Below are positions 1,483-18,966 of a stretch of DNA of 20,886 bases, piece after piece. Below the pieces are notes generated by a model. That model made no database searches. It saw only the letters and a list, made by a program, of their open reading frames with translations, and was not told the DNA's origin. The first letter of the stretch is position 1. Each line of letters starts with the position of its first letter. A program made the translations under genes and the position numbers. Source of the DNA: a virus. The stretch lies in the IMG/VR virus record IMGVR_UViG_3300042731_004594, positions 1-20,886 of that record; one strand, given 5' to 3'.

Positions 1483-1944
1483 ATGTCTGATCAAATAGAA
1501 AGACTGATAGAAGCTGTTAAAGCAATTAGTACAAATGTACAAAAAACAGCAACTTATATATCAGCCAATACATATTCATTAGATGCTGATTCGTTAATAG
1601 AAGTTATTGGTTTATCTGGTAATTTAAGTGATTTGGATGTTCTTACTGAATTAATAAGTTCACTGGCTGGTTCAACTTCTCTTAGTGGTGTATTTAATAT
1701 AAATAAACAATTAGATGGATTGATTATTAGTTCTTCTGGAGAATCTGCTGTTATTACTAATTCTAAAGAATTGTTTGGGGCTATAGCTGCATTAAGTTCA
1801 TTGTTGAGCAGATTGGAGGGAACTTCTAGATATGTTGCTGGTATTATAGGTGAATATTCTAGTGACATTGGATTTTTAAATATGTCCAATTCATTGGTAG
1901 GTAACAGCGGATCAGGTTCTGTTCTTTTTGGTTCTTTAGCATAA
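1483..1944 (+). CDS. small protein with 20-residue Ser/Gly repeats
   Basis: This 153-residue protein has a good ribosome site (AAAGGAAAGG) upstream of the ATG. After a helical N-terminus of about 45 residues it has Ser/Gly/Leu-rich sequence with an approximate 20-residue period. Consecutive segments beginning QLDGLIISSSGES and ELFGAIAALSSLLS carry the same spacing of L-x-G-x-I and S residues as the array in the adhesin at 8087. GLSGNLSDL and STSLSGVF closely resemble adhesin units. It lies between the terminator and tail tube genes, so it is probably a virion component, perhaps decorating the tail or neck. No catalytic motif or signal peptide is visible. The function is unknown. Confidence 0.7.
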   Translation: MSDQIERLIEAVKAISTNVQKTATYISANTYSLDADSLIEVIGLSGNLSDLDVLTELISSLAGSTSLSGVFNINKQLDGLIISSSGESAVITNSKELFGAIAALSSLLSRLEGTSRYVAGIIGEYSSDIGFLNMSNSLVGNSGSGSVLFGSLA

Positions 1945-1977
1945 TAAATTAAATTATAAATTACAGAGAGGTTATTT

Positions 1978-3195
1978 ATGTCAGATGCAAATCGTGTTCA
2001 AATAAGCTATGTAGAAGAGTCAGATTTTGGTGAAAAAGTGACTGGTTCTACTTTACAAAAATTAAGATTTAATAATGATTCTTTAAAGCCTGATTTTAAT
2101 ACCACTATTAGTGAGGAAATTCGCTATGATAGGCAAATATCTGATATTGCTAGAATCGGTGTTTCAGCAAGTGGAGGCATAGGTTTTGAATTAAGTTATG
2201 GCTCGCATGATGATTTTCTTAAAGCAGCATTATTGTCATCGGGGTGGTCTTCTGAAGTTAAAATTTCAAGAGCTTATACTATCAGTGCTTCTTCAACTGA
2301 TAATTCAATAAGTGATTCTGAAAGCCAATTTGGGAGCTTTGTTGCTAATCAGTGGGTTTATATTTCAGGATTTTCTAATTCTGGTAATAATGGATTCAAG
2401 AAAATACGTTCTGTCACTTCTTCTAAAATTATATTTTGGAATGGAACAATAGTTACTGAATCTGCTGGCCAAGCAGTAACAGTTCAAATGGGTGGACAAA
2501 TAACTAATGGAACAACTTTAGTTAGTTATAATATAGAGAAGGAATTCCAAGATTTAAGCAATGTATTGTCTTTATTTAAGGGTATGTGCATAAACAATAT
2601 GTCCTTGGAATGCCCTGCTGATGGCATTATCACAGGTAGCTTTGATTTTATGGGTTCTGCTGAAGAAGGCTTAACTGCTACTGCTGGTTCTGGATACACA
2701 GATGAAACTACTACAAATGTTATGACAGGTGCTAATCATGTAACTGATGTCTTGGAAAATCTCAGTGATGTTTCTATTTTGAGTTTAGCACTTTTAGTAA
2801 ATAATAATTTAAGAACAAGACTCAAAGTTGGAACTTTAGGTGTAGCTAGTATGGGTTCTGGTTCAGTAGAAATAACTGGAACTGTAACGATGCATTTAGC
2901 TGATGCAACTTTATACAATAAATTTTTAGATGAAGATGTTACATCTTTTGTTTTTGCAGTTAGAGATTCACAAGGAAATGGTTATTTGATAGAGTTACCT
3001 TCAGTAAAAATAATTGATGGCTCGCGTGCTGCTGGAGGTATAAATACTGATGTAGTAGCAGATTTTGAAATACGAGCGTATATGGATGCTACTGAAGAAA
3101 TTTCTATAAGGATAGTAAGATTTCCGATTATGAGTAACTTTTATGGATATATTGCTGGTTCAAGTAGTGTAACCGGAGCTTTAACTACTTCTTAA
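1978..3195 (+). CDS. major tail (tube) protein, Phage_tube_2-like
   Basis: This 405-residue protein forms the hexameric rings of the tail tube. The N-terminus matches the tube-protein pattern: an early 'YVEESDFG' strand, LRFNNDSLKP, then TISEEIRYDRQISDIARIGVSASGGIGFELSYG, with ISEEIR being the family signature. A middle insertion of roughly residues 95-165 (ISGFSNSGNNGFKKIRSV and following) resembles the small beta domain often inserted in these tube proteins. Later sections (GMCINNMSLECP, TGSFDFMGSAEEG) are also typical. The core appears to end at RIVRFPI. About 18 further residues (388-405) are one unit of the Ser/Gly repeat found elsewhere in this tail. A GAGAGG ribosome site precedes the ATG. 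Confidence 0.88.
   Translation: MSDANRVQISYVEESDFGEKVTGSTLQKLRFNNDSLKPDFNTTISEEIRYDRQISDIARIGVSASGGIGFELSYGSHDDFLKAALLSSGWSSEVKISRAYTISASSTDNSISDSESQFGSFVANQWVYISGFSNSGNNGFKKIRSVTSSKIIFWNGTIVTESAGQAVTVQMGGQITNGTTLVSYNIEKEFQDLSNVLSLFKGMCINNMSLECPADGIITGSFDFMGSAEEGLTATAGSGYTDETTTNVMTGANHVTDVLENLSDVSILSLALLVNNNLRTRLKVGTLGVASMGSGSVEITGTVTMHLADATLYNKFLDEDVTSFVFAVRDSQGNGYLIELPSVKIIDGSRAAGGINTDVVADFEIRAYMDATEEISIRIVRFPIMSNFYGYIAGSSSVTGALTTS
3139..3192 (+). repeat. single 20-aa repeat unit appended to the tail tube protein
   Basis: The last 18 residues of the tail tube protein (FYGYIAGSSSVTGALTTS) align with adhesin repeat units such as LIGYIASSSSLSGNLNSA. The G, I, S, S, hydrophobic, S/T, G and L positions keep the same register. 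The unit follows the point where the tube fold normally ends. The match is visible in protein; at DNA level it is diverged. Confidence 0.65.
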
Positions 3196-3219
3196 TAAAT
3201 ATATGAGGAGGGCTTTAGA

Positions 3220-3627
3220 ATGGCGAATATTGAAAGTATAAAAACAGATTTGAATAAAGAAGAAAATGGTGTTTGGGTAACTTTTGTAAGTGGCATAGAG
3301 CTTTTAATTGCAAGGGCTAGAAATCCTAAATATAATGAATTGATGCGAAGATTGGCTGATCCTGTTATTAATAAGATAAGAGATGAAGATAAATTTTCTT
3401 CAGAAGATTATGCTAAATTATTAATGGAAGTTCGTGCTAAAACTATTTTACTTGGATGGAAAAACATTCAGGATAAAAATGGCAATGATATTAAATATAG
3501 TAGTGAGAAAGCTTTAGAATTTTTTAAAGATCCTGAATTAAAAGATTTTTATGCTTTTATAGTTGGTGTTTCTGAAAGTGCTGATCACTTTAAAAAATTA
3601 ATTTTAAAGGCTTCTGAAAAAAATTAA
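3220..3627 (+). CDS. tail assembly chaperone, short form (gpG-like)
   Basis: This 135-residue protein lies immediately between the tail tube and tape measure genes, the classic position of the gpG-type tail chaperone. This chaperone coats the tape measure protein and recruits tube subunits before leaving the finished tail. The N-terminus (NKEENGVWVTFVSGIELLIARARNPKYNELMRRL) is typical of the family. A strong GAGGAGG lies upstream of the ATG. The gene ends in a run of seven A directly before its TAA stop. That run is a -1 slippery site, so a fraction of ribosomes should continue into the downstream frame to make the long form. Confidence 0.85.
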   Translation: MANIESIKTDLNKEENGVWVTFVSGIELLIARARNPKYNELMRRLADPVINKIRDEDKFSSEDYAKLLMEVRAKTILLGWKNIQDKNGNDIKYSSEKALEFFKDPELKDFYAFIVGVSESADHFKKLILKASEKN

Positions 3628-3944
3628 TTGATCTACTGCTTTGGAAACTTGAATGGGGTCCTTATGAGGACAAACTTAAAGCAGTAGGTAAATTAAAAGA
3701 TCAGCCAAAATTATATAAAGATTTAGAATATATTTGGGAAGCATTTTTAGCTCTTTCTAATACAAGAACTTCGTTAGAAAGTATTAAATTTTCTGAAATT
3801 GAATCTTATTTAAATTTGAATTGTATTTATAATGAAGATATTAGAACAGAAGTTACTCATTTAATTCGCATAATGGATATAAAGTATATTGAATACATGG
3901 CTAAAAAGTTAGAAGAAACGAGAAAGAAATATGCCAAGTCTTGA
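3220..3944 (+). CDS. tail assembly chaperone, -1 frameshifted long form (gpGT-like)
   Basis: The 303 bases between the short form and the tape measure gene are open in the -1 frame from the slippery site to TGA at 3942-3944, adding about 106 residues. The extension reads LIDLLLWKLEWGPYEDK, then YKDLEYIWEAFLALSNTR, then a SEIESYLNL segment and VTHLIRIMDIKYIEYM. This is the pattern of gpT-type extensions (IWEAF..LS..R, an SEI.-YL.L helix, LIR.MD..Y). There is no credible independent start codon at the beginning of this frame. The end overlaps the tape measure start by 14 bases. In lambda the T domain binds the tube protein while the G domain binds the tape measure; the same division of labour is inferred here. 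Confidence 0.88.
3618..3689 (+). promoter_or_regulatory. programmed -1 ribosomal frameshift signal (slippery heptamer plus hairpin)
   Basis: The heptamer A AAA AAT spans 3618-3624 in the correct phase (gaA AAA AAT) with the zero-frame TAA immediately after it at 3625-3627. Eight bases downstream a perfect 10-bp stem forms between CTACTGCTTT (3633-3642) and AAAGCAGTAG (3678-3687). It can be extended outward by a U-G and an A-U pair. An inner GTCC/GGAC hairpin (3658-3661 with 3668-3671) sits in the loop. Slippery site, spacer length and stem match the textbook arrangement for chaperone frameshifting. Confidence 0.9.
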
Positions 3945-6267: not shown

Positions 6268-6278
6268 TTTAGTAATGT

Positions 6279-6324: not shown

Positions 6325-6331
6325 AATGCTT

Positions 6332-6742
6332 ATGGGTAGTTTCACTGATTATTTGGAGAATGCCTTGCTGGACCATATTTTTGGCACTGGCGAAGGCAAG
6401 TCGCTGAGTTATACTCAGCCGGATAAATATATTGCTCTTTGTACTGTTGCAGTGACAGATACTGCTGATGGCAGTTCTATTACAGAACCAACAAGTCCAT
6501 CTTATGCTCGTAAAGTAATGGCGACGTGGGATGCTGCTTCTGGTGGTGCAACAGAGAACACCAATGATATTCTGTTTGCTCAAGCGACTGCAAGTTGGGG
6601 AACCATCTTAGATTTTGCTATCTGTGATGCTATTACTGCTGGTAATGTTTTGGCCTATGGGTCTTTGACTATCAGCAAAAGCGTCGCATCTGGAGACACC
6701 CCAAAATTTGCAACTGGCGATTTAGATATCACCTTGTCTTAA
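6332..6742 (+). CDS. Gp80-like phage virion protein
   Basis: This protein of about 136 residues belongs to a widespread but poorly defined phage structural family (mycobacteriophage Gp80-like). Signatures are the MGSFTDYLENALLDHIFG start, Y-IALCT strand, SYARKVMATWDAASGG, and the C-terminal ATASWGTILDFAICDA / GNVLAYGSLTISKSVASGDTPKFATGDLDITL block. The ATG at 6332 is preferred because it lies 7-8 bases after AAAGGAG; the in-frame ATG at 6326 is almost touching the ribosome site. Members are often found among tail or decoration genes, and here it follows the tape measure. Its base composition and codon use are visibly more GC-rich (CTG, GGC, GCC, ACC codons) than its neighbours, which suggests separate ancestry. 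Confidence 0.8.
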   Translation: MGSFTDYLENALLDHIFGTGEGKSLSYTQPDKYIALCTVAVTDTADGSSITEPTSPSYARKVMATWDAASGGATENTNDILFAQATASWGTILDFAICDAITAGNVLAYGSLTISKSVASGDTPKFATGDLDITLS

Positions 6743-6798
6743 AAATTAATTTGAGAGATAATTCTGACGGCGATGTTTAGTTTTTGAGGAGAACTAAA

Positions 6799-8052
6799 AT
6801 GACGGATAAAAAAATAAAAGTATATTTTGCGTTGTTAAATAATGGCCCGATAAGAAGAGAAATGTCTACTATAGTTATACCAGCTATGCAAAAAACTCCG
6901 GGAGTCGAATTGGTATGGGAAAATCCTAGCGTGACTTGGGCCAATCCAATTTCAAGTAATCGTAATAAAATTGTCAAACGATTTTTAGAAACAGATTGTG
7001 ATTATTTATTAATGATTGACGATGATGTTGTACCATATCATAATCCGTGTGAATTGGTTTTTGCGGGCGGTAATACTGATGTTATTGGTTGTCCGGCTTT
7101 AGTAAGAGCTTCTGGTCAAACAATTGTTTGGACTGCATATATACCCCATTCTGATGGAATTGGCTATTCGGCGGTAGATTTAGATTCATTTGATGATATG
7201 TTTGATTTATTAGAAGTTGCTATAGTTGGCACTGGATGTATTTTGATAAAAAGAGCAGTATTAGAAAAAGTAAGAGAGCCATTTCATTCTGAATTTGATG
7301 AAGATGGTATCCAAACTTATGGTACTGATTTTGCGTTTTGTAGAAGAGCTACAAAAGCTGGATTCCATGTTTATACAACTGTTCATAGACGTTGCGAACA
7401 TTTTAAAACAGTTGGCTTAAATGATTTTGACGCTTGGGACAGCATAAACTATTTTTGTAGTGATAATGCTAAATTTGGCATTCCTTGGGGTGAATATAGC
7501 ATAACTCAAAAAGATTGGAATTTTATAAAAGCCATTATAAAAGGTTTAGGAGTTGAAAAAATATTGGAGTTCGGTTGTGGTTTATCTTCTTTATTGCTTT
7601 CTGAATTATGCGAAGTTATAAGTTACGAAACTGATAATGAATGGAAAGAAAAGATAGAAAGCAAAGTATTGCCCCAAAATAATTTAACTGTAAAGCTTTG
7701 GGATGGCGTTAATTTTCCAAGAGATTTAATCAAAGTAGATGCAAAACAAGGAGTAAAGACTCCTAAATTCGATTTATGCTTTGTTGATGGCCCAAAAGAA
7801 ATAAGAAAAGGCGGTGCTGGTAGAAATATGTCTATTCATATTGCATCAAAATTATCGGATCATGTTATAGTACACGATGCTGGACGACCTGATGAAGAAA
7901 AATTTCAAAGAGCACATCTTCGTAGTGTTTTTAAACTTGAAAGAAAAAGTGGCAATCACATGACAAGATGTAATTATTGGAAAAGACGACCACATCCAGT
8001 AACTCTTGAAGAAATAAAAGCTAAAATGAAAAGCAGTAATATAAATAATTAA
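6799..8052 (+). CDS. glycosyltransferase (GT-A) fused to class I methyltransferase-like domain
   Basis: This 417-residue protein starts at ATG 6799, eight bases after GAGGAG; a TTG at 6784 is in frame but has no ribosome site. Residues 1-205 resemble a GT-A glycosyltransferase. They show SSNRNKIVKRFLETDCDYLLMIDDDVVP with the IDDD (DxD, metal/nucleotide-sugar binding) at 73-76, AIVGTGCILIKR at 141-151, and TDFAFCRRATKAGF at 176-189 followed by a CEHF. Residues of about 238-390 resemble a SAM-dependent methyltransferase: ILEFGCGLSS (motif I, glycine loop at 258-261), an acidic YETDNEW strand end at 276-282, and LCFVDGPKE at 326-334. It is a cytosolic enzyme encoded inside the tail operon, just upstream of a Ser-rich adhesin. 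It may glycosylate virion proteins or a sugar precursor; the acceptor is unknown. Confidence 0.75.
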   Translation: MTDKKIKVYFALLNNGPIRREMSTIVIPAMQKTPGVELVWENPSVTWANPISSNRNKIVKRFLETDCDYLLMIDDDVVPYHNPCELVFAGGNTDVIGCPALVRASGQTIVWTAYIPHSDGIGYSAVDLDSFDDMFDLLEVAIVGTGCILIKRAVLEKVREPFHSEFDEDGIQTYGTDFAFCRRATKAGFHVYTTVHRRCEHFKTVGLNDFDAWDSINYFCSDNAKFGIPWGEYSITQKDWNFIKAIIKGLGVEKILEFGCGLSSLLLSELCEVISYETDNEWKEKIESKVLPQNNLTVKLWDGVNFPRDLIKVDAKQGVKTPKFDLCFVDGPKEIRKGGAGRNMSIHIASKLSDHVIVHDAGRPDEEKFQRAHLRSVFKLERKSGNHMTRCNYWKRRPHPVTLEEIKAKMKSSNINN

Positions 8053-8086: not shown

Positions 8087-11086
8087 ATGTCTCGTTTGTT
8101 TAATAACACTGTTCCTGAATACTTGTATAGAAATTCTGCTATACAAGCCACTCCTCCGTTTGCATGGAGTTGTTGGTGTAGAGTTAATGATAAAAGTGTT
8201 ATTAATAATTTTTTATGGCTAGGGGATAAAGATGCTACGAACCAATGCCATAGAATGGGATATTCTTCTGCTGGTTATTGTTTTATTAATTCTAATGATG
8301 GAACGAGTAAATTGGCAATAACTTCTGGTGATATAACTGAAAATGAATGGTTCCATCTTGTTGGCATTATTGCTTCAGATACCGACCGACGAATTATAAG
8401 GAATGCTATAGATAAAGGGACAGAATCTACTTCTATTTCACCTTCAGGTATTGATAGATTCACTATTGGTATAAGGGGGAATGATGAACAGCTTGATCAA
8501 GCCACATCTGGAAATATATCAGAAGTGGCAATTTGGGACTTATCTTCTTGGCCGGGAGCTACTGCTTCAGATAAAGCAGATAGCTTTGAAGCTATAGTGT
8601 CTAATCTTGTTAGTGAGGATTATCTACCTAGTGATTATCCCACAGGATTAGTTTCTTATTGGGATTTATTGTGGAGCATAAGAGATAAAGTTGGTTCTAA
8701 TGATTTAACTGCTGTTGGCACTGTTGAAGCACAACATTATCCGTATATATTTAGTCCCATCTCTTCTTCATCTAATTTTATAGGATCTATTGATTTTGAA
8801 GTTTCAAATTTAATAGGTTCTATTAGTTCAGCTTCTAGTTTATCAGGTAATTTAAATTCTGCAATTACATTAATAGGCTCTATTAGTTCAGCTTCTAGTT
8901 TATTAGGTAATTTAAATGCAGCAACTAAGTTACTTGGTGCTATAAGTTCAGCTTCTAGTTTATCAGGTAATTTAAATTCAGCAATTACATTAATAGGTTA
9001 TATTGCTTCTTCATCTAGTTTATCAGGTAATTTAAATTCAGTAATTCAATTTACAGGTTCTATTAGTTCAGCTTCTAGTTTATCCGGTTCTTTTACAAAT
9101 GAAGTTCCGCTGATAGGTTCTATTAGTTCAGCTTCTAATTTATCAGGTAATTTAAATTCAGCAATTAAATTAGCAGGTTCTATTGCTTCTTTATCCAGTT
9201 TATCAGGCAATTTAAATTCAGCAATTACATTAATAGGCTCTATTGCTTCTTTATCCAGTTTATCAGGTAATTTAAATTCAGCAATTACATTAATAGGTTA
9301 TACTGCTTCTTCATCTAGTTTATCAGGTGTTGTTGAAATGCCAGTAAATTTAGTTGGTAATGTATTATCTAGTTCTGGTATAATTGGTGAATTAACAGTT
9401 ATAAGATACAATAATTTAGCAGGTAATTCGCTGTGTAGTACTAATTTGATCGCCCTATTGGAAGTTTATATTAATTTATTTGGCAATTGTGTAAGCGTTT
9501 CTATTACAGTAGGTGAAATCAGAGAACCTATTTATTTACAGGGAGCTATTTTTAATGACTCTAGTCATGATAATTGGTTATCTCCAACTAGTTTTATTGA
9601 CAATGCCAATTGGGTAGATGAAAGTAGGGCATATGATGGTAATGTGAACACTTTTGCAGGACATTCATATATATTCCCTCGTAGTTGGTCTGGATTTTTG
9701 CAATTATTGCATTCTTCAATATGGTGCAACAAGATAAGATACTATGAAGATTTATGGCTTCCTAATGATTTATATGATTTAGATGTCTATTATAATAATT
9801 CTTGGCATAATCTTTATCAAGGTAAAGGATCTTTGACTGGGGTTTGGAAAACTCACAATCTTAATGGTATTTACAAAGTTTCAAGAGTTCGTATCAGAAG
9901 ATATAATAGTGATGGAGAATATAGATCAGTTTATATCCATGAAGTTAATTTTAATGAATACATGGGGTCATTGCTATATGGACTATTAACATTCTTACTT
10001 GGATTATCTGGGACTTGTGAAGTTAATTCTAGTTTGAACGCTGATTTACAAGTAATTAAATCCTTGCAAGATAGTATTAATAGTTACTCAAATATTTATA
10101 GTGATTTAAGTTTTACTTATGATTATAGAGGAAGTATTTCATCAAATTCTAATATATCAGGAAATCTAACTGTAGAAAAGTCAATAAACTCGCAAGTATT
10201 TTGTTATTCTAGCGTGATTAGTTCTTTGCATCAATGCAAAGAACTGATAGGGCATTCGACTTCATTTTCTATATTATCTGGATTATTGACAAATATAGTA
10301 AGTTTAAATGGCTTGAGCTTGGGAGTAAGTTATCTTTCAGCGGATCGTCTAAATACCATAATATTAGAATCTGAGATATTAGGCATAACGCAGCCTCTAG
10401 GAAATGCATATGCTTCATTAGAAGTATTGACTAGTTTAGAATCTAGTATTTTAGATACTTCCAATTTATATTCTAATTTCAGTCTTATAATAAATTTAAT
10501 AGGTGAAATTGATTCTGAATCTAATTTATTTGCTGATAGGCTAAATACTATAATATTAGATGGGTCAGTAAGTGGTGTCACTGAGCCTTTTGGCAATGCT
10601 ATTGGTGCATGCAAAGTAGAAACTACTTTACAAAGTGTAATTAATAGCAAGTCTAATATAAATTCGTTACAACTTTTAGAATATTACATAGGATTCTATG
10701 AACGTTTAACTAATCAAATTACTACTTATTTTCAATCTATTGCTGATTCTAATAATTTAATTGTAAGATATGATGATGATTGCAGGGATACTCCTTCAAA
10801 TGAATTGTGGTGTTTTTGTAGTATAGATTATGGTAGCTGTAATAAGAGTAGTATTGGTGCTAATCGTTTTAGAAATATTGGCAATTTAAATATAAAAATA
10901 AAAAACCCAATAGGTTTAGGTATTAGCGAAATCTTGAGCACTGCTGACATAGTGGCTAATGCTTTTAGGAATATTAATTTAAATAATATTATTTTTGAAG
11001 TCCCCAGAGTTAGAAATGTTGGCAGAATAAAAGATGATCATCAATACAATGTTATTTGTCCATTTTTTTCGGATAGAATAGGTTAA
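8087..11086 (+). CDS. large multidomain tail adhesin: LamG-like, 20-aa repeats, discoidin-like, terminator-like
   Basis: This 999-residue protein is mosaic. Residues 1-220 look like a LamG/concanavalin-type jelly roll (FAWSCWCRV, ENEWFHLVGIIA, ISEVAIWD, GLVSYWDL). Residues of about 221-480 are 20-residue Ser/Gly repeats (SISSASSLSGNL type), regular at 60 bp per unit. Residues of about 485-630 resemble a discoidin/F5-8C carbohydrate-binding domain (RAYDGNVNTFAGHSY, CNKIRYYED, KVSRVRIRRYNSDG). Residues 630-865 hold degenerate repeats and a 64-residue tandem duplication. Residues of about 866-999 are a second copy of the tail terminator encoded at 1072-1464 (YFQSIADSNNLIVRYDDDCRDTP, ELWC, FRNIGN, VICPF). 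The jelly-roll and discoidin-like domains suggest sugar binding on the host surface. A terminator-like end could anchor it to a tail ring (inference). Only a weak ribosome site (AAGG) is present. Confidence 0.78.
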   Translation: MSRLFNNTVPEYLYRNSAIQATPPFAWSCWCRVNDKSVINNFLWLGDKDATNQCHRMGYSSAGYCFINSNDGTSKLAITSGDITENEWFHLVGIIASDTDRRIIRNAIDKGTESTSISPSGIDRFTIGIRGNDEQLDQATSGNISEVAIWDLSSWPGATASDKADSFEAIVSNLVSEDYLPSDYPTGLVSYWDLLWSIRDKVGSNDLTAVGTVEAQHYPYIFSPISSSSNFIGSIDFEVSNLIGSISSASSLSGNLNSAITLIGSISSASSLLGNLNAATKLLGAISSASSLSGNLNSAITLIGYIASSSSLSGNLNSVIQFTGSISSASSLSGSFTNEVPLIGSISSASNLSGNLNSAIKLAGSIASLSSLSGNLNSAITLIGSIASLSSLSGNLNSAITLIGYTASSSSLSGVVEMPVNLVGNVLSSSGIIGELTVIRYNNLAGNSLCSTNLIALLEVYINLFGNCVSVSITVGEIREPIYLQGAIFNDSSHDNWLSPTSFIDNANWVDESRAYDGNVNTFAGHSYIFPRSWSGFLQLLHSSIWCNKIRYYEDLWLPNDLYDLDVYYNNSWHNLYQGKGSLTGVWKTHNLNGIYKVSRVRIRRYNSDGEYRSVYIHEVNFNEYMGSLLYGLLTFLLGLSGTCEVNSSLNADLQVIKSLQDSINSYSNIYSDLSFTYDYRGSISSNSNISGNLTVEKSINSQVFCYSSVISSLHQCKELIGHSTSFSILSGLLTNIVSLNGLSLGVSYLSADRLNTIILESEILGITQPLGNAYASLEVLTSLESSILDTSNLYSNFSLIINLIGEIDSESNLFADRLNTIILDGSVSGVTEPFGNAIGACKVETTLQSVINSKSNINSLQLLEYYIGFYERLTNQITTYFQSIADSNNLIVRYDDDCRDTPSNELWCFCSIDYGSCNKSSIGANRFRNIGNLNIKIKNPIGLGISEILSTADIVANAFRNINLNNIIFEVPRVRNVGRIKDDHQYNVICPFFSDRIG
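8761..9540 (+). repeat. tandem 60-bp coding repeats (20-aa units) in the adhesin
   Basis: From about 8821 to 9360 the sequence repeats with an exact 60-base period over nine units, with degenerate units on both sides. Each begins near TATTAGTTCAGCTTCTAGTT or the variant TATTGCTTCTTCATCTAGTT and continues TATCAGGTAATTTAAATTCA. Units at 9181-9240 and 9241-9300 differ at only four positions by eye, indicating recent duplication. The encoded unit has the form LxGxIxSxSxLSGxL plus five variable residues. Confidence 0.93.
10340..10680 (+). repeat. 192-bp tandem duplication within the adhesin
   Basis: ADRLNTIILESEILGITQPLGNA, encoded from 10340, recurs as ADRLNTIILDGSVSGVTEPFGNA from 10532, exactly 192 bases (64 codons) later. 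The similarity continues through LEVLTSLESSI versus CKVETTLQSVI. The copies have diverged at DNA level, so the duplication is older than the 60-bp units. Confidence 0.75.
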
Positions 11087-11087
11087 T

Positions 11088-13364
11088 ATGGCTTATAATT
11101 TGCAAGATTCTTATACTGACAATGATCAAATAATATTACCTATTAGTAATGATACAGTTATTGCACAGTCTTTTACAGCCAGTTCTAGTTATGAAGCTAT
11201 AAAAGTAGAATTATTATTATATCGCATAGGAACTCCTTCTAATATAACAGTAACAATAGAAGGTGTTTCTGGAGGTTATCCTGATAATAGCCCTTTGGCT
11301 TCAATTGAAGTAGATATATCTAGTATCACTACTAATAGTTCTGGTGAATGGGTTGAATGTGTTTTTAGTTTTGGAGCTAAATTATCTAATGGCTCTCAAT
11401 ATTTTATTGTTGTGAGTGGAGGCTATGCAAGCGGTTCAGATTATTACAACTGGAAATCTGATTCTAATGATGCTAATTACGCTGGGGGAACTCAAGTTTG
11501 GTCATTAAATAATAGGGGCTCTTGGAATGGCCTTAATGATGATGGTACTTTTAAAGTTTATTCTGAAGACCCCTTATTTGAATCTTCGTCAAATATTACT
11601 TCAAATTTATCTGGAAGTTTAAGTGTCAATAATTTGTTTGAAGGTGGTATAAATATTAATTCGTCAATAAATGGCGAAATAATTATAAATGAAATTATAA
11701 TATTAGGCACATTATCTTATGAAACAAATATAAATGGTAATATTGGCATAAAATTTAATATATTAGGTTCTTTAAATAGTTTATCTAATTCATCCGGTTA
11801 TATTAATAAATTAATTGATATAAATTCTGAGATAATAGCTGCTTCTAATTTTATAGGTTCTATTTTAATTTCTATTGATTTATTTAGTAGTGCTGCCTCT
11901 TCTAGTAGTTTATCAGGATGGTTAGTACCTTATTTTGATGGCAGAAATGATTGTCTATCATCTAGCTCAGTAAGCGGTTATGGTACTGTAATTTGGGCTT
12001 TAAATGGTTATTCTAATGAAGTTGCAATTATACCAGTAGATTTTTGTATTTTAAATGCTGTAAAATTAGGTTCAAATATTTTGCCTAATAGTAGCTTGTT
12101 AGGATTTTTAAATAGAGAACAAGAATTGTATTCCAATGTGATTCAAGATAGTACTTTATCATCATTTTTAGATATAATACCAGATTTCGAAGCTGCTACT
12201 TTATATTATAGGCCACAAAATAAAATTCTAGAAACAATGGAATGGAAGACTAGTATTTTAAAAGCTCGTGATGGTACAGAACAAAGGATTAAAATAAGGC
12301 AATCACCTAGACAACATTTTAAGCTGAATATTTTATTTGAAACTAACAAAATAAATACAAAATTTGATGCTTTAATACATGGTTGGCAAAAATTAACTTG
12401 GTTGTTACCAATATGGACTGAATACGTTATACATACAACAGATATAAATCATCATGATATTTACGTTGATGTTGACACAACTTTTGCTGATTTTAGAAAT
12501 AATAGCAAAGCTATAATCTGGCAATCGCCGGATTATTTTGAAGTAATAACTGTAGATTCTAAAACAGATAGTAGATTAAATTTAAATGCAAATTATACTG
12601 TATTAAATAATTTTACTGGCTCTAAAATCATAGCCCCTGTAAGGACGGCATATTTAACATCTTCTATCAACAAAAAAAGATACAATTCAGAATTATCTTT
12701 AATAGAATTAATTTTTGAAGTTTATGACAATATAAATTTTGATGATTATACTCCAGAAATAAATTATGATGGGTTCGCTGTTTTAAATATACCTTCATTT
12801 ATGGAAAATAGTCATGATGAAACTAGTGATGCTGATATTATAGTGGTAGATTATGAGACTGGAATTTTTGATGTTAAGAGTTATAGCGATTTTAATTTCT
12901 TGTCCCAAGATCATATTTTTATTAATGAAACTAAACAAGAATGTTGGAATTTTAGAAAATTTTTGCATTCTTTAAATGGTCAACAAAAGACCGTGTTAAT
13001 ACCTACTTTTAGAAATGATGTTGTTCAAATTTCTAATATTGATGCTGATGATATATATGTAGATATTGAAGAAATAGGCTTGACTGATAATATGGGTTTA
13101 AATGATTTAAGAACTTATATTGGATTTTATTTCACCGATGGTACTTTAATAGTAAGAAAAATAATCGATATATCTAAAATTAATGAGACTAATTATGAAA
13201 GAATAACTTTGGATAAACCATTAAATTTATCCACAATTTTAACTCCCGGTGATTGTAAGATAGGATTCGTTGATAAATGCCGTTTGGCTTCTGATAAAGT
13301 AGAATTGAAATGGGATTTTGCCGGTAGAAATGAATGTAAAACCAGATTTATGAGAGTACCTTAA
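11088..13364 (+). CDS. tail tip/minor tail protein with jelly-roll domain and repeats
   Basis: This 758-residue protein has three parts. Residues 1-160 form a jelly-roll-like module resembling the 'choice-of-anchor R' type: IAQSFTASSSYEAIKVELLLYR, then GTPSNITVTIEG, WVECVFSFGAKLSNGSQYFIVV, YYNWKSDS and GTFKVYSED. It recurs three times in the hub at 15004. Residues of about 162-365 are degenerate 20-residue Ser/Gly repeats. Residues 366-758 look like the conserved tail-tip part: METMEWKTSI-type sequence, ARDGTEQRIKIRQSPRQHF (the 'W.T.vl.a.dG.EQRi.lR..PR' pattern of tail-tip proteins), and a closing DKVELKWDFAGRNECKTRFMRVP. The position between the adhesin and the gpL-like gene suggests a distal-tail ring or tip component. 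The start is one base after the previous stop. Confidence 0.75.
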   Translation: MAYNLQDSYTDNDQIILPISNDTVIAQSFTASSSYEAIKVELLLYRIGTPSNITVTIEGVSGGYPDNSPLASIEVDISSITTNSSGEWVECVFSFGAKLSNGSQYFIVVSGGYASGSDYYNWKSDSNDANYAGGTQVWSLNNRGSWNGLNDDGTFKVYSEDPLFESSSNITSNLSGSLSVNNLFEGGININSSINGEIIINEIIILGTLSYETNINGNIGIKFNILGSLNSLSNSSGYINKLIDINSEIIAASNFIGSILISIDLFSSAASSSSLSGWLVPYFDGRNDCLSSSSVSGYGTVIWALNGYSNEVAIIPVDFCILNAVKLGSNILPNSSLLGFLNREQELYSNVIQDSTLSSFLDIIPDFEAATLYYRPQNKILETMEWKTSILKARDGTEQRIKIRQSPRQHFKLNILFETNKINTKFDALIHGWQKLTWLLPIWTEYVIHTTDINHHDIYVDVDTTFADFRNNSKAIIWQSPDYFEVITVDSKTDSRLNLNANYTVLNNFTGSKIIAPVRTAYLTSSINKKRYNSELSLIELIFEVYDNINFDDYTPEINYDGFAVLNIPSFMENSHDETSDADIIVVDYETGIFDVKSYSDFNFLSQDHIFINETKQECWNFRKFLHSLNGQQKTVLIPTFRNDVVQISNIDADDIYVDIEEIGLTDNMGLNDLRTYIGFYFTDGTLIVRKIIDISKINETNYERITLDKPLNLSTILTPGDCKIGFVDKCRLASDKVELKWDFAGRNECKTRFMRVP
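11571..12182 (+). repeat. degenerate 20-aa repeats in the tip protein
   Basis: Residues of about 162-365 of the tip protein carry units such as LFSSAASSSSLSGWL, SNIT-SNLSGSL and FIGSI, with the same G/I/S/S/L/G spacing as the adhesin array but with more divergence. One unit is followed by LVPYFDGR, matching LIPYFDGR after a unit in the hub. The shared 18-base string ccttattttgatggcaga is at 11928-11945 here and 18346-18363 there. Confidence 0.75.
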
Positions 13365-14236
13365 TGGCAGTTATTTCTTTAGAATCAATTTTTTCTGTTT
13401 CTAGTTCACTAATTGGTGAGATTGAATTAGATAATTACCTTAATCTTGAACAAAGTCCACAAGATGGCAATCCAATAGAATTGTATTTATTTAATAATTC
13501 TGATTTAGAATATTGGTTATATACTAGTAGTGATTCTGTGGTGAATTACGAAGGTAGAACTTATACTCCAGTATTGATAAGAAGAGGAGATATTGTTTTA
13601 GATATAAATTCTCTAAAAACTCAATTAGAAATTGAAGTAGAAATAACAAATCCTATGACTCTAAATTGGATAGGAGGACCAATAGAAGGCGTAGTTCAAC
13701 TAACTATATATCGTTATCATAATAATTCTTTTGTGACTTATTGGAAGGGGTATGTGCGGGGGGTTAAATTTCAACGAGATTCAGCTATTATAATATCAGG
13801 GTTAAAGAATATTAGTCTTAAAAGATTTGGGTTAATGCGTAAGTATCAAAGAAATTGTGGTTTATCATTATATTCAAATAGATGCGGAATTTCAAAAACA
13901 GATTCAAATTATTATGTTGATGGGATTATAAACTCTGTTAATGGTACAACGATAGATGCTACAATTTTCAGCTCTAAAATTGATGGATGGTTTTTAGGTG
14001 GGATTTTTAAAACAGATACTGGTAATTGTCTACAAAAAATAGTTTATCATTCTGATACAGTTATAAGAATATCAAGGGCTATTTCTTCTTTAGTAGCTGG
14101 TCAAACTTTTAGAGCTTGGGCTGGATGTGATCATCTTATGGATACTTGTAAAACTAAATTTAATAATAAATTGAATTATGGAGGTTTTCCGTATTTACCA
14201 GATAAAAATCCATTTTCTGGGGATGCGGTTATGTAA
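13364..14236 (+). CDS. gpL-like minor tail tip protein with putative [4Fe-4S] site
   Basis: This 290-residue protein is of the lambda gpL / BR0599-DUF2163 type and acts at the tail tip next to the gpJ-like hub. The N-terminal domain reads IELYLFNNSDLEYWLYTSSDSVVNYEGRTYTPVLIRRGDI, typical of this family. The C-terminal domain has Cys165-x8-Cys174 (NCGLSLYSNRC) and Cys255-x6-Cys262 (GCDHLMDTC), then KFNNKLNYGGFPYLPDKNPF. The x8 and x6 spacings equal those of the four cysteines that bind a [4Fe-4S] cluster in lambda gpL. Residues of about 4-20 (ISLESIFSVSSSLIGEI) resemble one 20-aa repeat unit of this phage, with one extra residue. The start overlaps the previous stop (TAATG). Confidence 0.85.
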   Translation: MAVISLESIFSVSSSLIGEIELDNYLNLEQSPQDGNPIELYLFNNSDLEYWLYTSSDSVVNYEGRTYTPVLIRRGDIVLDINSLKTQLEIEVEITNPMTLNWIGGPIEGVVQLTIYRYHNNSFVTYWKGYVRGVKFQRDSAIIISGLKNISLKRFGLMRKYQRNCGLSLYSNRCGISKTDSNYYVDGIINSVNGTTIDATIFSSKIDGWFLGGIFKTDTGNCLQKIVYHSDTVIRISRAISSLVAGQTFRAWAGCDHLMDTCKTKFNNKLNYGGFPYLPDKNPFSGDAVM

Positions 14237-14238
14237 TT

Positions 14239-14592
14239 ATGTTTACAACAAGAAGATTGAAATTAAGATATGCGATTATTTTACAATTGATAGCAGGTTT
14301 ATTGTATGCTGATATGGTGTTTAGTGACTTGTCTAATACAGCTACAGATTCTGGGACACAACTTGCACTTATAAATTTTTTAATACAAGTAGCTATTATG
14401 GTGGCATTGTCTATGATATTAGCTCCAAAACCTAAGCAACCAAAAAAACCTTTACCAGTTGGATTAGAACAATTTGATATACCTACTGCTGAAGAAGGGC
14501 GGCCAATACAAGTTTTATTTGGTAAAAGATATATCGCGTCATCCAATGTTGTTTGGTATGGACATTACAGAACTGTTGCTGTTTGGGGGTAA
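14239..14592 (+). CDS. tail hub N-terminal membrane-type segment (possibly split from the gpJ-like hub)
   Basis: This 117-residue protein has a basic start (TTRRLKLR), two hydrophobic segments at about 11-30 and 41-63, a linker LAPKPKQPKKPLPVGLEQFDIPTAEEGRPIQVLFGKRYIASSNVVWYGHY, and then stops. In many siphophages the 'IPTAEEGRPI.V.FG...i...NVVWYGd' block continues, after a Lys/Gly-rich linker, straight into 'GYrYYLGMHMVlcHGpvd'. Here that continuation occurs near the start of the 15004 gene, after a GNAT-like gene. It is therefore probably one half of an interrupted hub gene, though a naturally separate small tail protein is possible. It starts two bases after the preceding stop, and its 3' end lies just ahead of the next gene's TTG. 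Confidence 0.7.
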   Translation: MFTTRRLKLRYAIILQLIAGLLYADMVFSDLSNTATDSGTQLALINFLIQVAIMVALSMILAPKPKQPKKPLPVGLEQFDIPTAEEGRPIQVLFGKRYIASSNVVWYGHYRTVAVWG

Positions 14593-14594
14593 TT

Positions 14595-15002
14595 TTGGAA
14601 GTAAAAAAAGCTGAAAATCCAATTATTGTTAAATATTTAAAACCATTTTTTATTGAAGATAGCTTCTATACTAAAGATATAATCGCTAAAGAAATATTTA
14701 ACATGATGGTTAAAGTTCCTAGAGAAATATTTGTAGCAATTATATTTGAAAAGGATTTATTACATGGCTTTATTATTGGGTGGCTTGAAAAAGATAATAA
14801 TTTTATTTGGATAACACAGGCTTGGTCCAAACCGGGAACGGATAGAAAATATGGCCGTAAGGCTATAAATATGATTAAAGAATGGGCGGTTAATAATTTT
14901 AATATACATGAAATGCGATTTGAGACAAATAGAAATCCTAAAGCTATAGAAAGAGTTTGGGGCTTTAAAATACATTCTTATATTATGAAAGATAAATTTT
15001 AG
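14595..15002 (+). CDS. GNAT-like acetyltransferase protein inserted between hub gene parts
   Basis: This protein of about 135 residues starts at TTG 14595, six bases after a GGGGGT ribosome-like run. The same frame is open upstream to TTG 14553, inside the previous gene. The fold pattern is GNAT-like: REIFVAIIFEKDLLHGFIIGWLEKDNNFIWITQAW (strands), then RKYGRKAINMIKEWAVNN in place of the acetyl-CoA loop/helix, and IHEMRFETNRNPKAIERVWGFKIHSYIMKDK, the usual 'fET.RN.kA.eR..GFk.ys..M' ending. The acetyl-CoA binding motif (Q/RxxGxG/A) is only partly kept as RKYGRKA. GNAT-like proteins occur among virion genes of several phages with unproven roles. Here it separates two segments that look like one hub protein. 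Its stop is one base before the next ATG. Confidence 0.65.
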   Translation: MEVKKAENPIIVKYLKPFFIEDSFYTKDIIAKEIFNMMVKVPREIFVAIIFEKDLLHGFIIGWLEKDNNFIWITQAWSKPGTDRKYGRKAINMIKEWAVNNFNIHEMRFETNRNPKAIERVWGFKIHSYIMKDKF

Positions 15003-15003
15003 T

Positions 15004-18000
15004 ATGTTATTTTTCAATCTACCATTACCAAAAGACAATACTGAAGTAGAATATTGTAATACCATTTTTCAGGTATCTAAAGATTCTATGTGTCAACTTA
15101 GATTTAAGAAAAAGAAGAAGCCCCAAGTTATAGGCTATAGATACTATCTTGGAATGCATATGGTCGCTGGTCATGGTAATATGGATGGGTGCGAAAGAAT
15201 ACGAGTTGGTGAAAAAACGGCTTGGACAAATTCTGAAACTCTAAAAGATACATATAATAATGAAATAAGTTCTTATCTTTTATCACCTATTGTACATTAT
15301 GGTCAAACTTTTACAGCTACTTCTTCTTATATAGCTAGTTCTGTTTCTTTAAGAATGTGGAGAAATTGGAATGCATTTCCTGGAACTTTGACTGTTAGCA
15401 TAAGGGATGTTGATACAGACACTGGATTACCTACTGGTGAAGATTTGACAAAAGGTACTACTGATGGTGATACTCTAGTGGAACAGCCTGCTTATGTGAG
15501 TTTAGCAGAATGGAGAAATATAGAATTTGATTTTCCAATAGAATTAGAATCAGGAAAACAATATGCTATTGTTGTTAAAGGTTTGCCTTTTGAATCTGCT
15601 GGTTTTGGAGGGGCTAATTGGAATATAGATACTTACTATCATTATTCAGGAGGAGGTTTTTGTGTTTCTTTAGACGAGGGAATTACTTGGGGATTTGAAA
15701 CATCCAACTATGATGCTTCTTTTAGAATATATAAACAAAATGGGGACGCTGCTGATGCTACTATATCTATTTCATCAGATAGTTTATTTGGTGGTGATAA
15801 AAAAGAGGGTGGAATTTCTGGTCCTGTTGATTTTATGTTTGGTTCTTCAAGTCAATCTCAGAATTCTTATCTAGTAGCTAGATTAGGAAGTGATATACCT
15901 GCTTATAGAGGGGTGTTTTCAGCAGTATTAAGACAAGTTTATGTTGGAACAAGTCCGTATATTAAACCTTGGAGTTTTTTATGCAGACGAATTGGTAAAC
16001 AAACCGATGGATCTGTACAATGGTATCCAGAGAAAGCAGCTATAAATGCAAGAGAAGCTGACGGTGATGATTTAAATGCTGCTCATATAATAAGAGAATG
16101 TTTAGTAGCTCCTGAATGGGGCTTAGGATGGACTGAAGATGATATTGATGATGATAAATTTAAAGAGGCTGCTAATATATTATATGATGAGAATTTTGGT
16201 TTATCTATGTTGTGGGATCAAGTACAACCTTTGGAGGAATTTATAGATGAGATTTTAAATTATATCGCTGGAATTTTGTATCAAGATTTGTCATCAGGTA
16301 AATGGGTTTTATCATTAGCTAGAGATTCTGATTACACTACTGCATATAATGGATATACAAATAGTGATGATAATCAAGTAAATGCTTCAATAGGTAATGC
16401 AAGATTAGCTCAAACATTCATCACTGATAAAACATATACACCAGCTTATGCTAAAATAAAAATTTATAAACAATTTGAAGAACATACTTGTAATATAAGG
16501 TGCGAACTTCAAGGAACGGATAGCAATGGTGATCCTGATGGAAATGTTATTACTCACGGAACTATATCGACTTCTGATGTAACTACATCAGCTTCTTGGG
16601 TAACTTGCAATTTTTCTTCTGAATCAGAATTAAATGTAAATACTAAATATGCTTTAGTAGTATATCCAATAAGCGGGACCGGTACTATGTATTGGCGATA
16701 TGATTCATTTGGACAATATGAAGGACATTTTGTAACATCTGGTGACGCAGGCTCTTCTTGGACAAAAAATAGGATTAGAGATTTTATGTTCGAAATTTAT
16801 GCAGGAGGCCAATTAGAAACTTTTAATGAAGATGATATTATGGAGGTCGAAGAATTTACGCGACCGGCTTATGGTGAAATCATTGATGTTATAGCAGTTA
16901 AATTTTGGAACAAATTAACGCATAAGCCACGTTCAACTGAAGCAAGAGATATTGCATTAATAGAAAAACAGGGGAACGCGGAGATAGAAAAAGTTTTAAA
17001 TTATCAAGGTATATGTAATAAAAGTTTGGCTAATGATGTTGCAGAAAGAGAATTAAAATTGATGACTTCTATGTTAGCTGGAGTAAGATTAAAATGCACA
17101 AGAAGGATGGCTCATTTAAAACCTAATGATATATTCAAATTTTCTTGGAGTGAATATAATATTACTCAAATGGCTCTAAGAGTTTTGAATGTTAATTATG
17201 GCAATTTACATAAGAACGAAGTGATAATTACTTGCACTGAAGATGAGTTTTGTGCTGCCCCTACTATATATGGTGATGCTGCTGATACTCTACATACAGA
17301 AGCTGCTAATGACCCCTCTAATGTTTCTAATATTATTTTATCTGAATTACCATATTTTTCATTGGCTAATGATGTGATAGGTTCCAAAGATTTGGTTGAT
17401 TTATTAGGTAATGACGCTGGTTATTTAGCTGTTGTAGCTTCGAAACCTACTGATGATGCTTTTGATTTTGATCTATATGCTAGATTATCTGCTTCTTATG
17501 AATTTGAAGATATAGGCCAAGGTAATAATAGATGGACTCCATCAGCTATTATTACCAATGGGTTGACTCAAAGTTCAGAGGATGAAGACGTAGATTTGAC
17601 AACTGAAATAGATTTAGATTTTGTAGAAGAAAATACATACGCTATTATAAATAATGAATTAGTCTTGATTAATTCTGTAGATTATGATAATATGCAAATA
17701 AATATTTCTAGAGGTGTATTAGACACAGTACCACAAGCTCATTCTGCTGGAGATAGAATTTATTTTATGGATTTAAACTATAGCATGCCTTCAGATGAAT
17801 ACACTAGCAATGATCAACCACAAGTTAAAATTCTAACAAGAACTTCTTTAGGAACTCTAGCTGAAGATGATGCTGACATACAAACATCAGATGCTTTTGA
17901 CAGTAGGATGATAAGGCCATATCCTCCGGGCAATTTAAAATTTAATGGGGAAAGTTTTCCTCAATATTTTTCTACAGCCATAACCGGCAAAATTGCCATT

Positions 18001-18966
18001 ACTTGGAATCATAGAGATAGAACTGATGTAGTACAATTAAATTCTATAGTAAAACACACCAATTCTAATAACTATGGCCCAGAAGCTGGTACTACTTATA
18101 CTATAAAAATATATGATGCTGATGGTGGATTAGGTAGAACTGTTACAGGATTATCTGGGACTTCTTATGATTATACCGAGGCGTTTGAACTTTCTGATTT
18201 TGGCTCATTGCAAGATACTTTAAGATTTGTTATATATGCAGTTCGTGGTGGATACAATTCTTGGAATAATGGCTATGATGTAACTTTAGAGCGTTCTTAT
18301 AGAGGTGACGTTGATTCAAATAGTAATGTTAGTGGAGAATTGATTCCTTATTTTGATGGCAGATTTAGAATAAATCCATCTTCTACTGTTGATGGGGATA
18401 TAATAAGATCAATCGGGTTATATGGAGTAATAAATTCATCTTCTAATTTGACTGGCATTATGAATCCTGAAATATTAACAGAAAGCTATATTGATGGGTG
18501 TACTTCTTATCATACGGTTTATTGGGTTGGAGCAACGGAGCAATGGATAGCTCAGACTTTTACTGCTTCTGAAGATTATGATTTTATAAGAACGGTATTG
18601 AATTTGTATAAATTAGTAGGTGATCCAGGAAATATAGAAGTTTCGATAAAAGCAACTGATGGAGGCGGTGCTCCTATAGGTGCTGATTTATGCTCAGCAA
18701 TTTTAGATGCTAATGGATTTACAACAGATTCAAATGGAAGAGAAGAATCATTTTCTTTTGAATCATCTATTAGTTTAACTGATGGAATTAAATATGCAAT
18801 AATTTTAAAATCTCCAACAAATGAGAGTACTTATGTTCGTTGGAAAGTTGATAATTCAAGTCCTTCATATTCTGGAGGAAATTTTTATTACTCATTAAAT
18901 GGTGGCTCAACATGGAATGCAGATAATACTTTAGATGGATATTTTAAAAATTTCAAATCAACTTAA
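15004..18966 (+). CDS. central tail hub / host-specificity protein, gpJ-like
   Basis: This 1320-residue protein is the tail-tip hub that binds the receptor. Conserved scaffold: GYRYYLGMHMVAGHG...RIRVGEKTAW (44-74); LFGGDKKEGGISGPVDFMFG (261-280); PAYRGV, VGTSPYIKPW, AAHIIRECL, EWGLGW, NFGLSMLWD and GKWVLSLARD (300-441); NEDDIMEVEEFTRPAYGE through QGNAEIEKVLNYQGI and RMAHLKPNDIFKFSWSEY (608-720); a fibronectin-III-like section at about 975-1097. Jelly-roll domains interrupt this scaffold at about 77-250 and 445-602, and a third forms the C-terminus (1160-1320). Three 20-residue repeat units lie at 1098-1157. Residues 1-35 match nothing I recognise, and no ribosome site precedes the ATG, which is one base after the GNAT stop. 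Confidence 0.88.
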   Translation: MLFFNLPLPKDNTEVEYCNTIFQVSKDSMCQLRFKKKKKPQVIGYRYYLGMHMVAGHGNMDGCERIRVGEKTAWTNSETLKDTYNNEISSYLLSPIVHYGQTFTATSSYIASSVSLRMWRNWNAFPGTLTVSIRDVDTDTGLPTGEDLTKGTTDGDTLVEQPAYVSLAEWRNIEFDFPIELESGKQYAIVVKGLPFESAGFGGANWNIDTYYHYSGGGFCVSLDEGITWGFETSNYDASFRIYKQNGDAADATISISSDSLFGGDKKEGGISGPVDFMFGSSSQSQNSYLVARLGSDIPAYRGVFSAVLRQVYVGTSPYIKPWSFLCRRIGKQTDGSVQWYPEKAAINAREADGDDLNAAHIIRECLVAPEWGLGWTEDDIDDDKFKEAANILYDENFGLSMLWDQVQPLEEFIDEILNYIAGILYQDLSSGKWVLSLARDSDYTTAYNGYTNSDDNQVNASIGNARLAQTFITDKTYTPAYAKIKIYKQFEEHTCNIRCELQGTDSNGDPDGNVITHGTISTSDVTTSASWVTCNFSSESELNVNTKYALVVYPISGTGTMYWRYDSFGQYEGHFVTSGDAGSSWTKNRIRDFMFEIYAGGQLETFNEDDIMEVEEFTRPAYGEIIDVIAVKFWNKLTHKPRSTEARDIALIEKQGNAEIEKVLNYQGICNKSLANDVAERELKLMTSMLAGVRLKCTRRMAHLKPNDIFKFSWSEYNITQMALRVLNVNYGNLHKNEVIITCTEDEFCAAPTIYGDAADTLHTEAANDPSNVSNIILSELPYFSLANDVIGSKDLVDLLGNDAGYLAVVASKPTDDAFDFDLYARLSASYEFEDIGQGNNRWTPSAIITNGLTQSSEDEDVDLTTEIDLDFVEENTYAIINNELVLINSVDYDNMQINISRGVLDTVPQAHSAGDRIYFMDLNYSMPSDEYTSNDQPQVKILTRTSLGTLAEDDADIQTSDAFDSRMIRPYPPGNLKFNGESFPQYFSTAITGKIAITWNHRDRTDVVQLNSIVKHTNSNNYGPEAGTTYTIKIYDADGGLGRTVTGLSGTSYDYTEAFELSDFGSLQDTLRFVIYAVRGGYNSWNNGYDVTLERSYRGDVDSNSNVSGELIPYFDGRFRINPSSTVDGDIIRSIGLYGVINSSSNLTGIMNPEILTESYIDGCTSYHTVYWVGATEQWIAQTFTASEDYDFIRTVLNLYKLVGDPGNIEVSIKATDGGGAPIGADLCSAILDANGFTTDSNGREESFSFESSISLTDGIKYAIILKSPTNESTYVRWKVDNSSPSYSGGNFYYSLNGGSTWNADNTLDGYFKNFKST
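18295..18474 (+). repeat. three 20-aa repeat units in the hub C-terminal region
   Basis: Residues of about 1098-1157 divide exactly into three 20-residue units starting YRGDVDSNSNVSGEL, GRFRINPSSTVDGDI and LYGVINSSSNLTGIM. The G, V/I, S, S, hydrophobic, G and hydrophobic positions match the adhesin units. They link the fibronectin-like part to the C-terminal jelly roll. Confidence 0.75.

Follow-up and report, generated by a model that had tools for sequence, protein, structure and literature searches.

The window analysed here, the whole 20,886-base stretch of the IMG/VR virus record IMGVR_UViG_3300042731_004594, carries a siphovirus-type tail cassette in which a 20-residue unit with the consensus LxGxIxSxSxLSGxLxxxxx recurs in at least five, probably six, tail proteins. 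An unnamed short unit, and not a folded domain, serves this lineage as an interchangeable building block; the unit is confined to a few tail genes, and traffic of units between genes is visible in some lineage members. We lean towards the view that it serves as an exposed spacer or decoration module of tailed-phage virions, which is mobile and would form a solenoid in arrays. The cassette provides an example, open to testing, of how viruses dress their particles.

The cassette was recognised by Pfam and PHROGs profile matches and comprises genes for an HK97-gp10-like protein, a tail terminator, a small protein, the tube, a tape measure, a gp80-like protein, an enzyme, an adhesin, a tip, a gpL-like protein, and a hub, of which those located below by coordinates lie on the + strand. 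The labels gpL, tip, hub, and neck are taken from the family names and from a first-pass annotation, made from the letters of this DNA. Two more contigs from one metagenome (L009 and L010) belong to the same virus and are therefore not independent of the window.

The repeat unit in the tail proteins of the window

The adhesin (8087-11086), which bears a LamG domain (Laminin_G_3 of Pfam, E = 5.5e-9), contains ten units in register at 8810-9409, of which the final two are degenerate. This is the long array reported in the first-pass annotation, and it is also visible as a 60-base tandem array in the DNA. A second stretch of degenerate units lies near 10064-10690. To avoid circularity, the unit profile was trained on seven other viruses (L012, L014, L016, L017, L022, L035, and L037), and later softened and end-padded. 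As the null, each of the 18 window proteins was shuffled 1000 times within 40-residue blocks, which preserves the local Ser/Gly content. Reversed proteins were dropped as a null since the unit is nearly palindromic.

With this profile, 14 units of at least 8 bits were found in the adhesin (p = 0.001), three in the small protein between the terminator and the tube (1483-1944; degenerate units at about 1651-1941; null mean 0.20, p = 0.001), and three in the tip (null 0.17, p = 0.001). The tip or tail assembly protein (11088-13364) consists of an N-terminal domain, a degenerate array at about 11571-12185 with a PYFDGR-type unit, and a conserved phrog_1082 domain (E = 4.7e-84). The hub (15004-18966; phrog_1101, E = 4.4e-222) has its three units at 18298-18477, followed by a choice-of-anchor-R-like domain (NF041539, E = 5.1e-12); the first unit, at 18298, is of the PYFDGR type, the middle one is degenerate, and the third starts at 18418 (best site p = 0.009, count p = 0.017). 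The tube protein (1978-3195; Phage_tube_2, Pfam E = 3.3e-40) ends in one unit, FYGYIAGSSSVTGALTTS, at 3139-3192 with 21.9 bits (p = 0.002). The gpL-like tail assembly protein (13364-14236; phrog_778, E = 1.4e-60) reached p = 0.03, but its best site, at residue 185 inside the conserved domain, is false, and the degenerate unit with which it probably starts (13379-13438) stays below 8 bits. The remaining 12 of the 18 window proteins gave no unit signal with the seven-virus profile.

Because L017 was found to be a relative of the window tail, we repeated the test without L017 in the training. The adhesin (p = 0.001), the small protein (two units, p = 0.005), the tube (19.9 bits, p = 0.002), and the hub (p = 0.012-0.023) kept their support, and the tip lost its significance (best site p = 0.099, zero units of at least 8 bits). 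A stricter first profile, which was blind to the truncated tube unit and again matched gpL at the wrong site, supported only the adhesin, the hub, and the small protein (tip p = 0.18, tube p = 0.075). By autocorrelation of hand-picked stretches, lag 20 ranked top in the tip (z 7.1, stretch picked by eye), the adhesin, and the hub, and second after lag 10 in the small protein.

These tests confirm that the unit is real above composition-matched shuffles in the adhesin, the small protein, the hub, and the C-terminus of the tube. Its presence in the tip is suggested by the periodicity together with the orthologous tips, and in gpL by orthologues. One repeat in five or six tail proteins had been claimed in the first-pass annotation; the seven-virus profile recovers five, the profile without L017 four, and gpL probably joins them through its orthologues. 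The degenerate units of the small protein, the three hub units, and the single unit ending the tube have all held up. The proposed array of the tip survives as a period of 20 residues and in its orthologues, having lost its profile significance without L017, and the unit proposed at the start of gpL finds its backing in orthologues with N-terminal units.

Distribution of the unit among related viruses

A degenerate DNA pattern for two units returned 29 stretches from viruses, eight of them genuine arrays as judged by eye, one of which is from the window's own virus and the others from seven other viral contigs. A slightly stricter version of the pattern gave 27 stretches in 84,980 species genomes; by eye, none of these was a 20-residue array, and all were shorter-period repeats or non-coding. 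Searching the arrays against phages by tblastn gave no match, which is weakly informative because low-complexity filtering masks such queries. Among the array-bearing viruses, L017 has an orthologous tail: about 18 units open its gpL (44% identical), and its hub (47% identical) carries units at the position of those in the window's hub. The other six have just one open reading frame (ORF) per locus with two or more units, and the spread over several proteins is therefore particular to the lineage of the window.

Relatives were gathered through alignments of the hub, the enzyme, and the tip, yielding 80, 17, and 28 loci, respectively, the hub set being the best 80 of 111. Named phages gave hub matches of about 38% at best, and no isolate of the window's lineage came to light. 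The orthologue counts are based mainly on one locus per virus after removal of conserved-domain sites, with L176 and other distant loci left out, and the window's own virus enters the tube and tip counts through L010. One terminal unit was present in seven of seven tubes examined, the window's virus included. Units were found in 14 of 19 hubs and in 15 of 21 tips, where the orthologues carry clear arrays; the five unit-less hubs run off the contig end, and the six unit-less tips begin at one. Eight of 20 gpL proteins have units, namely one at the start in L067, L147, L164, L166, L167, and L168, two or more in L068, and about 18 in L017. Copy number thus varies freely, from one to about 18 in gpL and from 1 to 18 in the tip. 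Unit-bearing ORFs also occupy the small-protein position in L148, L149, and L158. Five of the seven ORFs matching the adhesin outside its array have arrays themselves, and the remaining two, one from L148 and one from L149, resemble terminators alone.

Within the lineage, only a few tail genes contain the unit. Over 26 lineage loci, which include the window's virus and the overlapping pairs L148/L167 and L149/L168, units of at least 12 bits occurred in 0 of 80 other annotated ORFs, in 0 of 335 antisense ORFs, and in 2 of 130 unannotated ORFs on the + strand, both at the small-protein place (L148 and L149). The matches in virion genes, above the Ser/Gly-preserving null and restricted in this way among the relatives, are of the kind that the first-pass annotation had named as support. 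The more distant relatives of the tip and hub (such as L070-L072, L172-L174, and L177) showed isolated sites only and no arrays. The unit profile allows the annotation of array-bearing proteins otherwise recorded as "hypothetical".

Two further observations concern array-bearing and array-free loci. L157 encodes a 1177-residue protein (9212-12742) with about 32 units near gp80 and enzyme genes, and no tip homologue was recognised in the stretch analysed. The tube is longer in the array-free loci L172 (1604-3541) and L178 (1919-3850): at about 645 residues, it contains an inserted stretch, lacks the terminal unit, and gave no match to an Ig-like domain.

Exchange of units between genes

Units have been exchanged between genes in some relatives of the window. 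A search for DNA shared between genes in 18 loci gave 13 matches, comprising four array pairs, eight overlaps of neighbouring stop-to-stop ORFs as judged by coordinates, and one other. The gpL and hub arrays of L017 are 88% identical over 198 bp, including an uninterrupted run of at least 40 identical bases. The hub and tip of L146 share 88% over 129 bp, and the tip and hub of L163 share 85% over 103 bp. The fourth array pair, in L181, extends over 26 bp, and clear cross-gene DNA identity is seen in three of the 18 loci. In the window, the longest word common to two genes among six gene pairs is 18 bp, between the tip and the hub.

At the protein level, the GxLxPYFDGR type of unit is present in the tip and hub of both the window and L146 and in the adhesin of L158, with a variant in the L152 hub, and the SQPG type is found in tips, a hub, and an adhesin, plus the distant L035. 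In the 17 viruses that have units in more than one gene, cross-gene units of one virus were more alike than when virus labels were shuffled within genes (0.345 versus 0.275, p = 0.0002). The per-virus comparison with orthologous genes did not reach significance (10 of 17, Wilcoxon p = 0.35). Exchange has thus truly occurred in some of the viruses, although recent exchange is not the rule. The interpretation given in the first-pass annotation holds in part. Its shared module is borne out by its presence in several proteins, its confinement to a few tail genes, and the exchange in relatives; the DNA of the window itself has no trace of recent exchange.

A second tail terminator at the end of the adhesin

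The last 134 residues of the adhesin (10682-11083) are a paralogue of the virus's own canonical tail terminator, the gene of which lies at 1072-1464 (phrog_179, E = 2.2e-15). The two share 38% identity over 127 residues (E = 3e-32, with 1072-1461), and adhesin residues 871-997 match phrog_179 directly (E = 6.2e-13). A phrog_179 domain likewise closes the array proteins of L158 and L150, and comparable fusions occur in L148 and L149, at other places in the gene order. In L016, which belongs to another lineage, the domain that ends the array (1562-1972) is paralogous to a separately encoded protein of the same virus (2863-3297; 33%, E = 2e-26). This domain has a weak connector match (phrog_2595, E = 3.2e-4), the separate protein matched no family, and BLAST detected no likeness between the terminal domains of L016 and the window. 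In two lineages, then, an array is fused to a duplicate of the virus's own connector, or of a protein resembling one. Duplication of the terminator or connector suggests a route to neck-anchored adhesins, taken in two viruses with connector domains that are not detectably alike.

Predicted fold and probable role

We modelled the arrays by AlphaFold with an alignment of 12 arrays. The best model, with a predicted local distance difference test score (pLDDT) of 77.6 and a predicted template modelling score (pTM) of 0.69, shows mostly two eight-residue strands per 20-residue unit, from which we predict with moderate confidence that the array is a beta-solenoid. The alternation L1 G3 I5 S7 S9 L11 G13 L15 would turn the hydrophobic and the small residues towards the same side, taken here to be the core. 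Against Pfam at E ≤ 0.1, the 12 arrays gave no convincing family; ten were listed, none of them an Ig-type family (Big, I-set, FN3), BACON, or a carbohydrate-binding module (CBM). Eight PHROGs families were matched, all weakly (best 2.8e-5), three being virion structural or tail families and five of unknown function. No sequence of a solved structure matched the arrays at E ≤ 1.

The reading we lean towards can be spelled out as follows. Consecutive units would stack into a beta-solenoid, in which a 20-residue rung would mostly comprise two strands, each about eight residues long. The unit seems to have been grafted onto termini and linkers, namely the C-terminus of the tube, the C-terminal parts of the hub and the small protein, the N-terminus of gpL, and the interdomain region of the tip. 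The long array of the adhesin could be a stiff spacer keeping the LamG domain off the particle. Because the adhesin ends in a terminator paralogue, its site may well be the neck, where the C-terminal copy would sit in or beside the terminator ring. On the tube, the tip, and the hub, one to many units would decorate the surface and might make weak contacts to the cell surface or between appendages. Tandem changes would alter the copy number, and recombination, as seen in some relatives, would pass units between genes.

Several observations weigh against this reading. The solenoid reading does not account for the lone unit of the tube, since one unit by itself cannot make a solenoid, and the model of the tube with its terminal unit was poor (mean pLDDT 43.6, with 21-29 in the last blocks). 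Of the common fold sought by the first-pass annotation, a solenoid-like form is predicted for an array. The five array models spread from the best pLDDT down to 50.3. Foldseek with the array model found no match at E ≤ 0.001 (best E 0.12). In favour of a solenoid, structural realignment of the Foldseek list placed an ice-binding beta-helix (3p4g, Z 12.6, 2.4 Å over 154) at the top and the tail fibre of Agrobacterium phage 7-7-1 (9rkv_M, Z 12.5, 3.1 Å over 156) next, but Z under about 13 for repeats may reflect just a common arrangement; most structures in this list are beta-solenoids. The unit is missing from 12 of 20 gpL proteins, and the 564-residue tip of L176, a relative of L175, is free of units although the hub has an array, so that a tip array is not obligatory. 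To these add the non-significant per-virus comparison and a ratio of nonsynonymous to synonymous substitution rates (dN/dS) of 1.10 for the gpL-hub pair of L017.

A different role would be that of a glycosylation acceptor tag, to which the enzyme encoded next to the adhesin adds (methylated) sugars at Ser/Thr, coating the neck, the tube, the tip, and the hub; we consider this unlikely. The enzyme (6784-8052, start codon uncertain) is glycosyltransferase-2-like with a methyltransferase-like C-terminus, both assignments being weak (Glyco_tranf_2_3, E = 2.4e-4, below the cut-off; weak C-terminal matches). It is 45-77% identical in 13 of the 16 other loci found, with partial matches of 35-38% in three, and had no match in named phages and no useful solved relative. 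Its gene directly precedes the adhesin, and in relatives it stays between gp80 and the array-bearing tip. For the 52 tip-family loci with upstream sequence, all 8 that encode the enzyme, one of them recognised by a weak 30% match, have arrays, against 1 of the 44 that lack it; 17 loci were left out of this count as own virus, same contig, or near-identical (assumed for L105 and L107). A precedent is provided by AIDA-I and TibA, beta-helical proteins whose serines are hyperglycosylated by dedicated heptosyltransferases, according to the relevant passages of PMC4358343. However, these are located on the cell surface and not on a virion, the window enzyme is glycosyltransferase-2-like with only a putative modifying activity, and no heptosyltransferase (BAHT) family was among its Pfam or NCBIfam results. 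The association is also confounded by descent because all enzyme loci are close relatives of the window (tip score ≥ 432 versus ≤ 308). In a comparison of 19 records chosen by us, arrays occur without an enzyme match in L012, L014, L016, L022, L035, L037, and L075, several of these records being fragments. PF00535 and PF13692 were not over the cut-off in L012, L014, L022, and L037, and PF00535 was over it in the array-free L070 and L071. Ser/Thr at even positions was not raised with the enzyme (0.381 in 88 units versus 0.433 in 75 units without it, picked equally; 0.379 versus 0.443 in an earlier count for which units had been picked unequally). Glycosylation, once the leading reading, was downgraded on the enzyme-free arrays, the distribution of PF00535, and the Ser/Thr composition.

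Rather improbable, in our estimate, is a docking element, with single units of the tube, gpL, and the hub pairing with arrays of other proteins by beta-strand addition and so joining appendages to the tail. Such pairing would fit the unit at the end of every tube examined, the location of units at termini, and the inability of a single unit to fold alone, but a fixed interface fits poorly with the variable copy number of gpL and the tip and with the many gpL proteins lacking a unit. That the unit is a functionless low-complexity or selfish repeat spread by recombination we regard as very improbable. The DNA-level exchange between genes would agree with it, as would dN/dS values of 0.47-0.73 between units of four arrays and the 1.10 of the L017 pair. 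Against it stand the position pattern preserved in distant viruses, the restriction to a few tail genes, the constancy of the tube unit, and low dN/dS in L035 (0.17, dS saturated) and in the exchanged segment of L146 (0.10; 43 codons, dS 0.53, dN 0.05), a pattern suggesting that selection has maintained both copies. A combined picture, a virion-wide exchangeable coat in which a recombination-copied and enzyme-modified solenoid unit covers the neck, the tube, the tip, and the hub while the longest array bears a lectin-like domain, kept at the neck by a ring that mixes ordinary terminators with array-bearing ones, seems to us quite doubtful.

Comparison with known systems

No description of this repeat was found in the literature, in a search confined to open-licence full texts. 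The first-pass annotation had gone further in knowing of no described system of this kind, which is too strong a statement in view of two precedents. In the 936-group lactococcal phages, proteins of the neck, the tube, and the distal tail carry CBMs, in combinations that vary (PMC6669499). The CBMs sit in the neck passage structure, the extension of the major tail protein, and the evolved Dit, and one kind of module extends across the neck, the tube, and the distal tail, as the unit does here. There, however, the module is a folded CBM, and two are described as shown to bind the host, whereas the window has a 20-residue repeat with free copy number in about six proteins and with cross-gene exchange in relatives. 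The arrays have no Pfam CBM match and are predicted to be a beta-solenoid, other folds being possible. Ig-like domains, in turn, are promiscuous accessory modules reported on five classes of virion protein (Fraser et al., 2006, via PMC9022992); the account given there places them on tube C-termini, tail fibres, baseplate, and capsid proteins and describes them as often dispensable. The unit likewise sits on more than one kind of virion protein. Unlike these domains, it has no sequence match to an Ig family, is 20 residues long with up to about 20 repeats, and is predicted to form a solenoid. By analogy, the unit most likely acts like the 936 CBMs and the Ig-like domains.

The BACON repeats of crAss-like phages (PMC6949934) are likewise tail-associated tandem repeats that grow by duplication and transfer, but they are full Ig-like domains, and the window arrays have no BACON match. 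The gp80 fibril of GP4 and the "extra structural module" of LSH1 (PMC13243795, in its passages on these phages) resemble the window in that a gp80-like protein adjoins the adhesin. LSH1 has a neighbouring protein with a poorly predicted beta-helix, which its authors suspected to be repetitive. Compared with these, for LSH1 by its description only, the window adds the terminator-linked adhesin and the spread to other tail proteins.

Neighbouring genes and other features

The gp80-like protein (6326-6742), a putative fibril protein that often adjoins arrays, matches PF23140 with 116.1 bits against a cut-off of 27 (E = 1.7e-33) and PDB entry 8jou_a (E = 1.5e-5). Its GP4 relative is described as a fibril joining the adhesin to the collar (PMC13243795, in the part on gp80), and a note in the phiM5 sequence record states that the homologue there has been found in particles. 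Within the 19 chosen records, gp80 is present in seven of the nine array-bearing ones outside the lineage, being missing from L075 and the 4.7 kb L035, and in one of the nine array-free tail relatives, an association in favour of the reading we lean towards; L154 has both gp80 and the enzyme, and no array was seen. From 64 phage records with gp80, ten regions were taken, plus one by tube similarity. A protein near or directly after gp80 was tested for periodicity in seven deposited phages; 20 is the top lag in five (P ≤ 0.023), and the top lag is 21 (P = 0.10) in phiM5 and 8 in CRP-4. One cultured gp80 phage with a 20-residue array is Methylophilales phage MEP402 (gp62). Strongly 20-periodic proteins downstream of gp80 in deposited phages are those at 8392-9222 in L188, 14805-15581 in L192, and 3256-4071 in L185, two of which are annotated as "serine-rich adhesin". 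Two proteins of named phages gave no match to sequences of solved structures at E ≤ 0.1.

A choice-of-anchor R-related domain may represent a second promiscuous module, occurring in the tip (11088-11570) and at least twice in the hub (15274-15780 and 18532-18963), with 37% and 31% identity. The proteins hosting the unit, described as otherwise of unrelated families in the first-pass annotation, are not entirely so: the tip and the hub have this domain in common, and the adhesin ends in a paralogue of the tail terminator. About 1.1 kb between the hub and a SprT-like gene (18967-20110) has no listed ORF of at least 60 residues. Between the gpL-like protein and the hub lies an ORF (14553-15002) with a weak match to GNAT acetyltransferases, which is kept in L068, L146, and L153.

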